From a virus: DNA of 33,145 bases. Positions 4,939 to 16,991 of the stretch are shown piece after piece. Location of the stretch: the IMG/VR virus record IMGVR_UViG_3300042922_000471, positions 1-33,145 of that record; one strand, given 5' to 3'. Below the pieces are notes generated by a model, which saw nothing but the letters and a program-made list of their open reading frames with translations, had not been told where the DNA came from and did no database searches. Position 1 is the first letter of the stretch; every line of letters begins with the position of its first letter. A program made the translations under genes and the position numbers.

Positions 4939-4998
4939 AAGTCGATTATAATCGACAAGTAGATATAAATCAACCTAAAAGTAGAAAAAAATCACCTT
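4939..4998. promoter_or_regulatory. operator cluster of the lysis/lysogeny switch
   Basis: Three related sites lie in tandem. Site 1 contains the perfect palindrome GTCGATTATAATCGAC (4941-4956). Sites 2 (4957-4976) and 3 (4979-4998) both begin AAGTAGA and contain AAATCA, and read as weaker versions of the same pattern. Spacing from start to start is 18 and 22 bp. Graded site strength between divergent CI and Cro genes is the familiar lambdoid arrangement. The middle and right sites lie between the two promoters. Confidence 0.7.
4945..4973 (-). promoter_or_regulatory. promoter of the CI-like repressor gene
   Basis: On the minus strand, TTGATT (4968-4973) and TATAAT (4945-4950) are separated by exactly 17 bp. 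The -10 is the centre of the palindromic operator, so a protein bound there must block this promoter. Confidence 0.75.
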
Positions 4999-5005
4999 AA
5001 TGCTA

Positions 5006-5034
5006 TTGACATTCTACTTTAGGGAGATTAACAT
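5006..5034 (+). promoter_or_regulatory. candidate rightward early promoter
   Basis: A consensus -35 TTGACA (5006-5011) is followed after 17 bp by TAACAT (5029-5034), a moderate -10. It would drive the Cro-like gene at 5067 and the early operon. It lies just right of the three operator sites, so repressor binding at site 3 would overlap its upstream edge. Confidence 0.6.
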
Positions 5035-5066
5035 GAAGTCACAAACAAGGGAATGGAGGGCAGAAG

Positions 5067-12041: not shown

Positions 12042-12725
12042 ATGTTGAAATCAGCTTCGCAATTAATCAGTGAGATTCTCAAAAAGCATCTTCCAGAGAA
12101 ACAAGAAGACCATAAAACCGAAGCATTGAGAAAGTCGGTGCTGAGAACATCAACACTTTTGGACCTGATGGAGGATGGGAAACTTAAGCAGGATTTGGAA
12201 CAATACTACCTTTCTCAATGCGAACAATTTGCTGAACGTATCGCATTGAAACAAAGAATGGGTTTGCTTGCTGCTTTCCACCCCGTAAGCCAGGGAATTA
12301 TGCTACAACCGGCTCCCGCTCAAGATCCCCGCAAGCAGGCGGACAACGAGATCAACAATTTGAAGCGAATCAGCGAAGTCGTCGCAGAGGTATATCAATA
12401 CATGTGCATGAAGAGAGACGAGCGGCGGCTCCATTGCTTGGCGGGTATCCAAGAGCGGCGTTTCCTGATCCGGCAGCAGCCAGATAACCAATGGGGTGTA
12501 TACGAGCTGTGCAAAGCGGTCTACGAGCTGGCCGAGCTGGACCGAGTAAACTTCAATGCCGCAGGGCTACCGGAGAAGTTGGAGCTCATCCTTGAACTGA
12601 TTCCTTTTGCGGAAAACAAAGCCGTTTGTGAAGGTGTGATGGAGTATCACGACTCCCGCTTACAGCAAGGATGGGAAATGGCGTACTTACAGGAGCCGGC
12701 TCATGAGCAAGCCGATAGACTATAA
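12042..12725 (+). CDS. helical protein of unknown function
   Basis: ATG 12042 has AGGAGG 8 nt upstream (227 aa); a longer frame to 11955 lacks such a site and overlaps the previous gene. It is helical and charged, with a segment AELDRVNFNAAGLPEKLELILELIPFAENKAVCEGVM near the end. No motif is recognised. The last 23 nt overlap the sigma factor gene, so the two are likely translated together; a functional link with the sigma factor (for example as a partner) is possible but only inferred. Confidence 0.6.
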   Translation: MLKSASQLISEILKKHLPEKQEDHKTEALRKSVLRTSTLLDLMEDGKLKQDLEQYYLSQCEQFAERIALKQRMGLLAAFHPVSQGIMLQPAPAQDPRKQADNEINNLKRISEVVAEVYQYMCMKRDERRLHCLAGIQERRFLIRQQPDNQWGVYELCKAVYELAELDRVNFNAAGLPEKLELILELIPFAENKAVCEGVMEYHDSRLQQGWEMAYLQEPAHEQADRL

Positions 12726-13851
12726 CCCGCATTTAGGGCAAAAGGACGAAGTCGTTCAGCAATACATGAGGATGGTCCACTATTATGCTAATCGGTACAA
12801 AAAGCGGTGTACAACCACGATTAGCTATGACGATTTAGTAAGCGAAGGGACTATTGGCTTAATCAAAGCTTTTAACAAATATGACCCGACGGCATTCGGT
12901 GGAAAAGTTACAAGGTTTTCCACCTTCGCCGTTCCTTACATCCAGGGAAACATTCTTCGTGTTCTTCGCGAGAAAAGCGGGTTAGTCAGACCGCCCCGGT
13001 TGATTCATGAAACAGCTGCAAAGATCAGATGGAAGGACATGTATGACAGTTCTCCGGAAGAGATTGCAGCAGAGTTGGAGATATCGCCCGATTTGGCCGC
13101 CAAAACACTGCACTACTTGAACAACGCCTCTGTTGTCTACTTGGATAAGCCGATATATTCAGACGGAGAATCTGAAATCACCGGTCTCGATCAGTTGGGC
13201 GGAATAGACGATTTATCCGGCATTATGATTCAGGAATTTGTATCATTCCTTAAACCGAAGGAACAGCAGATTTTCCTGTTGCGGTGTGAAGGGAAGCCAC
13301 AAGCTGAAATCGGTGAAATCGTAGGTACGACACAACCCCAAGTGGGGAGGGCAATCCGGCGAATCAATGCACGATTTGAAAGATATATGACCAATCCTGA
13401 AAGTGAGGAATTTAACATGACAAGAGAAATGACCACACGCAAGATCAATGCTGAAGAAGCCAAACGGCTGGGAGTGAGAACGGTGCTGGATGAAATCGAA
13501 TGGTATTCAGGTGAAGCCGCTTCTGGAATTGCGAGTGTCAGCCTCAATTCATTGGGAATGCACATCAGCCGGCAGGCAGCTGAGACGCTGAATCTGAAAC
13601 CAGGCGATTTCATCCAGGTAGGGTTTAACGGTGCGCTGCTCCGCATGGTAATTCGCAAGACTGATACGGGAACCAAACTGAACAAGTCTACCGGTACCAG
13701 CGGATCGGTGGCGACCAACAATAAAGCAATCGGACGCTGGATTCTCAGCAAGAATGTTGTTCGTAAACGTTATGCACTTCAGTTCGATGAAACCACGCAG
13801 GTCTACTTCATCCAACTCGAAGCAGATGTTCAGGAAGCGGGTACCGCCTAA
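12703..13851 (+). CDS. phage sigma-70 family factor (SigB/SigF-like) with extra C-terminal domain
   Basis: Residues 1-238 form a complete small sigma factor: region 2 (about 20-92, including SYDDLVSEGTIGLIKAFNKY and RFSTFAVPYIQGNILRVLRE), region 3 (about 105-145) and region 4 (about 184-229, LKPKEQQIFLLRCEGKPQAE, then a QPQVGRAIRR recognition helix). It has no region 1, like SigB/F/G proteins, whose usual size is about 240-260 aa. A further 144 residues (239-382) follow, containing SLNSLGMHISRQAAETLNLKPGDFIQVG, which has the look of a swapped-hairpin AbrB/SpoVT-like fold. The ATG at codon 239 has its own ribosome site. It would direct host RNA polymerase to phage promoters. Confidence 0.85.
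   Translation: MSKPIDYNPHLGQKDEVVQQYMRMVHYYANRYKKRCTTTISYDDLVSEGTIGLIKAFNKYDPTAFGGKVTRFSTFAVPYIQGNILRVLREKSGLVRPPRLIHETAAKIRWKDMYDSSPEEIAAELEISPDLAAKTLHYLNNASVVYLDKPIYSDGESEITGLDQLGGIDDLSGIMIQEFVSFLKPKEQQIFLLRCEGKPQAEIGEIVGTTQPQVGRAIRRINARFERYMTNPESEEFNMTREMTTRKINAEEAKRLGVRTVLDEIEWYSGEAASGIASVSLNSLGMHISRQAAETLNLKPGDFIQVGFNGALLRMVIRKTDTGTKLNKSTGTSGSVATNNKAIGRWILSKNVVRKRYALQFDETTQVYFIQLEADVQEAGTA
13417..13851 (+). CDS. possible internal in-frame product: AbrB-like C-terminal domain alone
   Basis: Within the sigma gene, ATG 13417 is in frame and preceded by GTGAGGA 7 nt upstream. It falls exactly where the sigma fold ends (residue 239). The 144-residue product could be made separately as a stand-alone DNA-binding protein, or the site may be a relic of fusion of two adjacent genes. 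The segment about 37-75 of this part (LGMHISRQAAETLNL, then PGDFIQVGFNG) resembles AbrB/SpoVT hairpins. Confidence 0.4.
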   Translation: MTREMTTRKINAEEAKRLGVRTVLDEIEWYSGEAASGIASVSLNSLGMHISRQAAETLNLKPGDFIQVGFNGALLRMVIRKTDTGTKLNKSTGTSGSVATNNKAIGRWILSKNVVRKRYALQFDETTQVYFIQLEADVQEAGTA

Positions 13852-15656: not shown

Positions 15657-15693
15657 ATCAGCTCATGCTCATTATACCATATGAGGAGCTGAT
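15657..15693 (+). promoter_or_regulatory. inverted repeat masking the ribosome site of the ArpU gene
   Basis: ATCAGCTC (15657-15664) is complementary to GAGCTGAT (15686-15693), and the latter includes part of the GAGGAG ribosome site (15683-15688) of the gene that starts at 15698. In RNA this would sequester the site. If transcription starts within the repeat it would instead be a DNA operator. Confidence 0.4.
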
Positions 15694-15697
15694 ACAC

Positions 15698-16141
15698 ATG
15701 GGGGCAGAACCATTGATGGCAGACATCCAGCGAATTGACGAGGAAGCTACAAGAGACGCCGTCGAGAAGTACCTGAAGCAAGCCCGCGAATACATGGTCA
15801 CTGACTATATTCCGGAAGAGGCGAGCGTGACCGCCTCCATAAGCGCCACGCCACGCAGCTACACGGGCCTGACCAGCGATCAGACCGGGAACATAGCCAC
15901 CCGTAACGTAGACGAGCCGGAGCGCCGCAGGCGGCATGTAGACCGTGCGGAGCGGGCAATCAGTAGGCTGGGTTCACGGCAGCAGAAGCTTATCCGGTTT
16001 CGATATATAGATGATGATGACATTCTGGATATCGACGCCGCGCAGGAGCTGGGCTTCAGTGATCGGCACTACCGGCGTATTAAATCGCTGGCAATCTACC
16101 GCCTGGCGGGCATGCTTGGGCTGCTTATTTTGCGCGAATAA
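15698..16141 (+). CDS. ArpU/RinA-like late transcriptional regulator
   Basis: ATG 15698 (147 aa) follows GAGGAG by 9 nt. The C-terminal part is a sigma-region-4-like helix-turn-helix: RAERAISRLGSRQQKLIRFRYIDDDDILDIDAAQELGFSDRHYRRIKSLAIYRLAGMLGLL (about 85-145). The N-terminal half is helical with a middle linker. ArpU and RinA proteins activate late operons of Gram-positive phages. Directly after its stop lie four tandem 11-bp repeats and a promoter, then the structured RNA and the packaging genes, a fitting target. A hairpin covers its own ribosome site. Confidence 0.8.
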   Translation: MGAEPLMADIQRIDEEATRDAVEKYLKQAREYMVTDYIPEEASVTASISATPRSYTGLTSDQTGNIATRNVDEPERRRRHVDRAERAISRLGSRQQKLIRFRYIDDDDILDIDAAQELGFSDRHYRRIKSLAIYRLAGMLGLLILRE

Positions 16142-16147
16142 TCAAAA

Positions 16148-16190
16148 TGTCCGCTTTATGTCCGGTCTATGTCCGCTCTATGGCCGATTC
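16148..16190 (+). repeat. four tandem 11-bp repeats upstream of the late promoter
   Basis: TGTCCG starts at 16148, 16159 and 16170 and TGGCCG at 16181, each exactly 11 bp apart, with the unit TATGTCCGCTC. All lie on one face of the helix and end 15 bp before the TG of the extended -10 at 16205. They begin 7 bp after the arpU stop. This is the layout of activator-binding iterons, and the ArpU-type protein is the obvious candidate ligand. Confidence 0.7.
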
Positions 16191-16204
16191 TTTGCTTTTT
16201 GGCG

Positions 16205-16213
16205 TGTTATATT
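16205..16213 (+). promoter_or_regulatory. candidate late promoter, extended -10
   Basis: TGTTATATT is an extended -10 element lacking a good -35, as expected for an activator-dependent promoter. The four 11-bp repeats end 15 bp upstream. Transcription would begin near 16220 and run into the structured RNA. Confidence 0.5.
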
Positions 16214-16410
16214 GGTAATACGGAAAACAAGGCGAGACACAGTGACAAGTGCCCCGGATGCGTGTAGACGATTAAGTTCCACTTAGTCCAGTGCAGCGGG
16301 GCAATTCACATATAGGCGGTCGCCCAATGGGTTTAACTGGCCCCGCTTATGGGGCGAGTGAGTCCGCCGCAAGAAGCCGTATCGCTCCCGGCTACAGGAG
16401 CAGCATAACT

Positions 16411-16572
16411 GATGTGGTGGCGGAATAGGTAGACGCTAATGGCAGATAGATGGGCTTAGTGGTTAAAATCCACGAGCGGACAATCACGGCGAAATAGCCG
16501 ACTCCGCGACGCCGTAGTTAACCAGGCAGACGAGTAGACCATCATGCAGGGTGCAAATCCTTGCCCACATCG
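16411..16572 (+). ncRNA. tRNA-Leu-like domain with oversized central arm
   Basis: GATGTGG and CCACATC (16411-16417 with 16565-16571) form a perfect 7-bp acceptor stem. Next comes TGGCGGAATAGGTAGACGC, a normal tRNA-Leu-type D arm with the conserved GG. A T arm GCAGGG-TGCAAAT-CCTTGC precedes the acceptor, with TGC where TTC is normal and a 6-bp stem. Between D and T arms, instead of a 17-nt anticodon arm, there are about 109 nt that fold as one long arm: TAATGG/CCATCA, TGGTTAA/TTAACCA (16460-16466 with 16518-16524), GCGGA/TCCGC (16476-16480 with 16503-16507), CGGC/GCCG. An alternative hairpin GTGG-TTAAAAT-CCAC resembles an anticodon arm. No CCA is encoded. It is not a normal tRNA; the layout recalls the tRNA part of tmRNA. 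Confidence 0.6.
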
Positions 16573-16583
16573 AATCTTCATAG

Positions 16584-16629
16584 GGTATGTCGTCAATGTC
16601 CTCCGGGCGTTAGAGCGGCATACCTTTTT
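16584..16629 (+). terminator. intrinsic terminator of the structured RNA
   Basis: GGTATGTCG (16584-16592) pairs with CGGCATACC (16616-16624) over 9 bp, with one G-T pair, and is followed by TTTTT. It lies 12 nt after the tRNA-like domain, giving the RNA a defined 3' end. Late genes downstream would need readthrough or another promoter. Confidence 0.8.
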
Positions 16630-16718
16630 AATATTCCCAAGCGTTTGCTAATTTTTGCCAAGCAGGGAATACTCCTACGGTGTAGAATCTGTTCATATCA
16701 CATCAGAGGAGTGTTCAT

Positions 16719-16991
16719 ATGTCACAGCAAAAGCCAGACCCTAGTAAAATCATCATCCCTGTAGAAGACGCAGACGGCGAGTTCAGAATGATTCGCCTCA
16801 GTGAAGTCAATGCAATTACTGGTGAAATCGAAGGAGACCCGCAGTCAACTGCTATATTCCATGTAGGCGGCAAGCAGTATAAGAATCTGCATACGGATAA
16901 GGGTGTACAGCAGTTCAACGAATACTGGTTGCTCAACAAGGATAAGCACAAAGGCGATGCGATACCGGGGATCAGAATCGAAGAAGAGTAA
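16719..16991 (+). CDS. small protein, possibly LytTR-like DNA-binding
   Basis: ATG 16719 has AGAGGAG at a good distance. The 90-residue product (IIIPVEDADGEFRMIRLSEVNAITGE, then AIFHVGGKQYKNLHT) has a strand pattern and an isoleucine-pair, acidic turn and LHT ending that recall LytTR DNA-binding domains, though the match is weak. It is the first protein gene after the structured RNA and is in the head-operon direction. A regulator of late genes is one reading; I am not sure of the family. Confidence 0.6.
   Translation: MSQQKPDPSKIIIPVEDADGEFRMIRLSEVNAITGEIEGDPQSTAIFHVGGKQYKNLHTDKGVQQFNEYWLLNKDKHKGDAIPGIRIEEE

Follow-up and report, generated by a model that had tools for sequence, protein, structure and literature searches.

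A tRNA-Leu-like RNA element without an anticodon arm in late leaders and tRNA islands of Bacillota phages

A gene-free leader between arpU and the packaging genes

What occupies the roughly 400 nucleotides that separate the late activator gene of this virus from its packaging genes? The window (the whole stretch of DNA analysed, positions 1 to 33,145 of IMG/VR record IMGVR_UViG_3300042922_000471) encodes an integrase, a recombination directionality factor, a DnaB-like helicase, TerS, TerL, portal and head proteins, and the nearest relative of its TerL is that of Paenibacillus larvae phage Lily (52%). The region in question, 16220–16629, is bounded by the ORF of an ArpU/RinA-type late transcription activator directly upstream (15665–16141, phrog_248, E = 5e-27; + strand, as are all features of the leader described below) and by small ORFs ahead of terS and terL (18450 and 18952). 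A preliminary description of this DNA had seen no credible gene here, and indeed no ORF of at least 50 aa spans 16220–16629; the only frames that touch it are the tail of the + strand frame 16011–16286 and the start of 16561–16764. Upstream of the ArpU gene, 12703–13851 encodes a 382-aa phage protein with matches to sigma-70 regions 2 and 4 (Pfam; sigma factor in PHROG).

The activator-like repeats reported ahead of the region are present as ATGTCCG-type direct repeats with 11-bp spacing at 16147–16186, which we presume to be activator sites and which also lie behind ArpU in relatives L002–L010 (L numbers denote loci of the comparison set). As for the promoter reported with them, a TATATT-like −10 box and presumed start of the late leader can be seen by eye at 16209–16222, with similar boxes by eye in relatives, but a sigma-70 scan scored no consensus promoter pair ahead of the RNA region. 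A late promoter at this position is plausible.

The 410 nt of 16220–16629 have a predicted fold of −148.4 kcal/mol (z = −2.46). Of the three long-range helices proposed earlier, what stands is that the 5′ leader domain (16220–16410) is predicted to fold stably and with long helices (z = −2.81); the long-range helices in these 5′ 190 nt are a thermodynamic prediction only, with no homologue aligned there. The terminator at the other end is as good as had been claimed, a hairpin (stem ~16582–16626) followed by TTTTT within 16572–16629 (z = −4.80), and the stretch made up of T-arm (below) and terminator is 82% identical in Paenibacillus rhizophilus (L232). A directly adjoining terminator was rejected as a general feature of the family, since it follows 20% of the elements and 9–10% of flanking controls, too weak a difference.

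Architecture of the element at 16411–16571

An exact search of viral contigs with the central piece of the window returned no matches, so relatives were sought through the D-arm and T-arm. Among phage records, the best distant BLAST matches came down to two short segments, one GGTGGCGGAATAGGTAGACGC-like and one GCARGGTGCAAATCCTTGC-like, which correspond to the D-arm and the T-arm of a tRNA-Leu-like element. The window element lay outside the training set of covariance model R1, which was made with 24 other members. R1 matches the window exactly once, at full length and precisely over 16411–16571 (60.2 bits, E = 2.6e-14, R1 E-values being rough). That this segment has a tRNA-Leu-like core is near certain, and the tRNA-like 3′ domain of the preliminary description is in that sense real, sharpened to a Leu type with defined ends and placed in a broad family of Bacillota phages.

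The element opens with the 5′ strand of a 7-bp acceptor stem, GATGTGG (16411–16417), which pairs with CCACATC at 16565–16571 and has the support of family covariation. It is followed by U8, G9 and a Leu-type D-arm, TGGCGGAATAGGTAGACGC (16418–16436, stem 16420–16422/16434–16436), identified by family conservation and by the tRNA-Leu genes that R1 cross-matches. The hypervariable middle domain stands in place of an anticodon arm (16437–16545, 109 nt) and is multibranched in the minimum free energy (MFE) fold, with a closing helix P3 (16449–16453/16539–16543; supported also by comparison of the family with shuffles) and hairpins at 16454–16477 and 16487–16500; an alignable middle is found in L153. 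After A-U48 (16544–16545) comes the T-arm (16546–16564), with a 6-bp stem GCAGGG/CCTTGC, the loop TGCAAAT, and G in place of U at position 55. The window element has A15-U48, G18G19 and A20a, has no CCA, and carries G73 as discriminator (16572). Its tRNA-like part has z = −1.74, and the unconstrained MFE fold already forms the acceptor, D and T arms.

The hairpin GTGG-TTAAAAT-CCAC (16459–16473) was considered as an anticodon arm and rejected, because the same hairpin in L153 is T-arm-like (GGTTCGAATCC); its equivalent is T-arm-like also in the second element of L047. That second copy (L047, ~2265–2425) has an ordinary TTCAAAT T-loop on the same 6-bp T-stem, lacks an anticodon arm, and has a middle that aligns with that of the window.

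Standard tools pass over the element. ARAGORN called no tRNA or tmRNA gene in the window, and Rfam gave no matches there, the tRNA, tmRNA, GOLLD and ROOL models included, in agreement with the earlier view that this is neither GOLLD nor ROOL; over 16100–16720 at up to E = 10, Rfam gave one chance match only and no Y RNA, GOLLD or ROOL. R1, in turn, has weaker matches in four bacterial genomes, and all six that were fetched are tRNA-Leu genes; judged by sequence, the element is homologous to tRNA-Leu.

Covariation across the family

Pattern scans that used only the D-arm or only the T-arm independently retrieve the same object, and 267 distinct elements were collected. A D-arm lies upstream at 197 of 210 T-arm sites (2 in the downstream control), and among 73 D-arm loci with a T-arm that closes the acceptor stem the T-stem is 6 bp in all 73 and position 55 is G in 72; nine D-arm loci missed by this strict rule are all scored by the covariance model. 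The acceptor stem, GATGTGG/CCACATC in the window, differs in sequence elsewhere and is still complementary. In 156 non-redundant elements that were retrieved by T-arm and whose D-arm was located by sequence, acceptor pairs 1–6 are formed in 95% of cases versus 45% (maximum 50%) with shuffled partners, and pairs 2–6 show all four Watson-Crick types. Doubly changed cells number 227 versus 62 in shuffles among 54 selected cores, and sliding the register abolishes the signal; since these cores were picked for their regularity and assembled from separate arms, the unbiased figure is the 95% versus 45%. The check for covariation among homologues that had been suggested for the locus therefore comes out positively for the tRNA-like part, and covariation and covariance model score together put this domain far beyond chance. 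The strong compensatory change in the stems indicates that selection acts on them.

Tertiary pairs of the U8-A14 and A15-U48 type make the elbow of a tRNA. In the T-arm set U8 is kept in 153 of 156 elements and A14 and A15 in all 156, figures that carry a selection bias because a D-arm similarity of at least 14/19 was required; A15, U48, G18, G19, A20a, U8 and A14 are kept jointly in 146 of 156, with U48 fixed by the search pattern, and U48 is found in 64 of 64 elements of the independent D-arm set, where it was unselected. The discriminator is A73 in 55% of elements versus a 35% background (z = 6.4), and NCCA is encoded in 1 of 229.

The hypervariable middle domain

Across the family the middle domain ranges from 1 to 352 nt. 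The shortest middles, of 1 and 8 nt (phiFL3A and L023), mean that the tRNA core can stand alone. A closing helix abutting the A-U48 before the T-stem occurs in 36% of the family versus 5% in shuffles. Structure is evident in those middles that can be aligned. A hairpin, a 9-bp helix and a loop-loop pseudoknot recur in six elements (from Bacillus, Lentibacillus, Sporosarcina and viral contigs), and over the whole element this subgroup has 16 pairs changed on both sides versus 7.8 in shuffles, with the pseudoknot covarying. Inner T-arms were dropped as a family feature because they occur in only 7 of 229 elements (0.04 in shuffles).

A whole tRNA-like gene is nested in the middle domain of the L168 element (tRNA-Lys TTT, 4968–5040, complement) and another in that of L050 (~620–690), and in L113 and L139 there is apparently an insertion in the D-loop as well, where AATAG...GTAGACGC is split by a long insert, beyond the anticodon-arm position.

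Distribution and genomic neighbourhood

The carriers are phages and prophages of Bacillota, among them Listeria phages PSA, B025 and A511, Enterococcus phages phiFL3A and EfV12, Bacillus phages phi3T and Grass, and Leuconostoc and Paenibacillus phages, and the element is without annotation in nearly all records viewed. Among 84,980 species genomes surveyed, 108 stretches were recovered; all named isolates among them are Bacillota, and the few other labels belong to metagenome bins, in which phage contigs can readily be misassigned. At E = 1e-9, 4 of 300 Bacillota genomes (one of them the chosen centre) and none of 198 genomes of another phylum score.

Two settings recur. Seventy-two elements lie at most 1.5 kb downstream of ArpU (3 lie upstream), and in the virulent phages A511, EfV12, Grass and Maenad the element sits, unannotated and without ArpU, inside a tRNA island (in A511 at L331 5028–5168, minus strand); tRNA genes near elements are on the same strand in 150 of 150 cases. 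For 67 of 163 elements neither ArpU nor a tRNA gene was detected nearby. Of the 11 closest ArpU relatives just one has the element, which is therefore an accessory part.

Other RNAs occur in the same neighbourhoods. Further tRNA-like elements of other D-arm types, with the anticodon arm missing or malformed, lie beside the Leu-type element in L005 (3334–3451) and L103 (2117–2189), and comparable non-Leu elements lie upstream of it in L120, L123, L132, L140 and L201; two of these neighbours score 42–43 bits with the Rfam tRNA model. The tRNA island of Enterococcus phage EfV12-phi1 holds an apparently unannotated tmRNA gene (L105 838–1188, RF00023, 122 bits). In Listeria phages PSA, B025 and LP-037 the Rfam mcrA RNA is downstream of the element, and in PSA the sRNA rli62 (Rfam) is upstream (L102 1753–1888 and 2147–2198, L013 1775–1825 and L107 2203–2253 for these RNAs). 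SPbeta-like phage Goe14 has a skipping-rope annotation (L332 1557–1666) just after hup, at the position that the element occupies in phi3T, with a DUF3800-VIII RNA close by (2863–2928), and the post-hup site of SPbeta-like phages is possibly a locus at which RNAs are swapped. Identity with the skipping-rope RNA was rejected, as no scanned locus gave an Rfam match to that family, and the SPBc2/Goe14 sequence at the site has no D or T arms. Beside its tRNA island A511 has a gene annotated as an RNA-binding protein (L331 234–1754), and the protein placed like it in Listeria phage CKA15 has been suggested to be Ro/Rsr-like (PMC12282133). A CKA15 time course found very high transcription of noncoding regions beside the tRNA island, suggested to be Y RNAs (PMC12282133), the coordinates of which were not matched to the tRNA-Leu-like element.

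Possible function

Action on a synthetase or RNase by tRNA mimicry, as the preliminary description proposed, is the reading we favour. In this scheme the phage would transcribe the leader late, and its 3′ domain (16411–16571) would be a tRNA-Leu mimic that folds as a class II tRNA does in its upper half (acceptor stem, D-arm, T-arm and elbow), for which decoding is impossible because a hypervariable structured domain replaces the anticodon arm. Host RNase P at the 5′ end and RNase Z at the 3′ end would cut it from the leader, just as for the CCA-less tRNAs that these phages encode. Downstream of the elements a bias to U74, T/A75 and A/G76 resembles what CCA-less tRNAs show at these loci, and on the upstream side U-1 is enriched, the −1 and −4 biases being only partly like those of true tRNAs; these flank biases fit maturation by RNase P and RNase Z, and we consider the promoter use and processing outlined here probable. 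The released element would then act as a decoy or competitor of tRNA-Leu, its variable domain serving as effector or hiding it from recognition by the host. We give an even chance to action as a competitor through mimicry, and put the reading as a whole, an excised tRNA-Leu decoy, at about the same level.

The likeliest partner would be the host leucyl-tRNA synthetase (LeuRS) or another reader of the tRNA-Leu core, perhaps a defence enzyme that attacks tRNAs. E. coli LeuRS requires A73, A15-U48, G18G19, A20a and D/T-loop contacts that include G18:U55, while the anticodon and variable arms are dispensable and an armless tRNA-Leu is still charged (PMC9976931). The phage elements keep the D-arm and 15–48 features that LeuRS reads and drop a fixed A73 and U55, the pattern that might be expected of a mimic that is bound yet uncharged. 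G18:U55 is, however, a leucine identity contact in E. coli (PMC9976931), so that with G55 both charging and LeuRS binding may be weaker, and conservation of the D-arm could reflect descent and the elbow fold rather than LeuRS. LeuRS is the best single candidate, and as the specific partner it is still doubtful.

The strongest alternative is that the element is punctuation for processing, a signal at which host RNase P and RNase Z dock and cut to free the leader or neighbouring tRNAs from the remaining transcript, and that it has no action in trans. RNase P needs little beyond the acceptor-T stack, the 3′ flank bias is that of CCA-less tRNAs, and the element lies in a late leader or among tRNA genes of the same strand. 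Cleavage alone would not call for the near-invariant D-loop, A15-U48 and G55, and it leaves the conserved pseudoknotted middle of one subgroup unexplained; in the window, moreover, the terminator right after the element leaves little downstream to separate. We regard punctuation as unlikely.

Another possibility, to which we assign a rather low probability, is a shield against anti-phage defences that cut tRNAs in the anticodon or variable loop, a tRNA shape without the cut site occupying the nuclease. The patchy, accessory distribution would suit this, as would a middle that is hypervariable exactly where such nucleases cut, and phage tRNAs are known to counter Septu and retron-Eco7, which cut the variable loop of tRNA-Tyr (PMC13096335); Leu-type elements would nevertheless be odd against cutters of tRNA-Tyr or tRNA-Lys.

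Some members might instead be special-purpose tRNAs that are CCA-tailed, charged with leucine and used outside decoding, like tmRNA or cell-wall glycyl-tRNAs. Provided that A73 and the D/T contacts are kept, LeuRS can charge an armless tRNA-Leu (PMC9976931), and the enrichment of A73 over background could mean that some members are charged. Nearly half of the elements have another discriminator, however, as does the window with G73, U55 is lost in 72 of 73, NCCA is all but absent and no tag ORF was seen, and we think this improbable.

A role in antitermination of the late operon, raised in the preliminary description, or in attenuation would have the leader control read-through in cis, and its place downstream of the presumed late promoter and ahead of the late genes, with a terminator following, would suit it. 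The same element also occurs in virulent phages (A511, Grass, EfV12 and Maenad), inside tRNA islands and away from any ArpU promoter, and is absent from 10 of 11 close ArpU relatives, which makes this very unlikely. A degenerate or intron-bearing tRNA-Leu gene, suggested by the homology, has next to no probability, since the covariation contradicts a pseudogene and the middles of 1 and 8 nt without an anticodon arm, which could not be spliced into a tRNA, rule out an intron.

Returning to the tRNA-Leu mimic, an RNA missed by tRNA finders and Rfam is present in hundreds of phages and prophages of Listeria, Enterococcus, Bacillus, lactic acid bacteria, Paenibacillus and rumen Clostridia. It is a natural tRNA-Leu core without the decoding parts, occurs in model phages PSA, phiFL3A, phi3T and A511, and may account for some of the RNA left unannotated in late leaders and in the tRNA islands of phages. 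We suggest, tentatively, that it represents an undescribed and widespread class of noncoding RNA in phages, a tRNA-Leu mimic that lacks an anticodon, carries a hypervariable pseudoknotted effector and, late in infection, would bind and block LeuRS or a defence enzyme that senses tRNA. If so, it would be an RNA-based action of phages on host translation or defence, the counterpart in RNA of protein anti-host factors.

Comparison with known RNAs

The literature searched on phage tRNA-like RNAs, ArpU leaders, Y RNAs, decoys and SPbeta RNAs, mostly non-subscription papers, held no description of the element, and an earlier description is possible. The closest known RNA is tRNA-Leu itself, with which it shares the D-arm sequence, U8-A14, A15-U48, G18G19, A20a, C56 and a 7-bp acceptor stem. 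It differs in having no anticodon arm or CCA, no fixed discriminator, G55 for U55, a 6-bp T-stem that brings acceptor and T stems to 13 bp rather than 12, and a hypervariable middle of up to hundreds of nucleotides. tmRNA (RF00023) likewise combines a tRNA-like acceptor/T domain with a domain of helices and pseudoknots in place of the anticodon arm, but the D-arm of the phage element is of true Leu rather than Ala type and there is no tag ORF. The staphylococcal non-proteinogenic tRNA-Gly has a T-loop altered at U55, as the element does, but is a complete tRNA with an anticodon and is charged and serves the cell wall.

The ends of Y RNAs form the Ro-binding stem, whereas those of the tRNA-Leu-like element form an acceptor stem; no Ro-like protein was matched among the 20 window proteins compared with PHROGs or the 10 compared with Pfam. 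Bacterial Y RNA (YrlA) resembles the element in being a noncoding tRNA mimic and, according to work cited in PMC12282133, has been reported in phages. GOLLD and ROOL are also RNAs of phages and prophages, found near tRNA islands and of unknown function (PMC12286853), but they are far longer, form cages and have a different structure.
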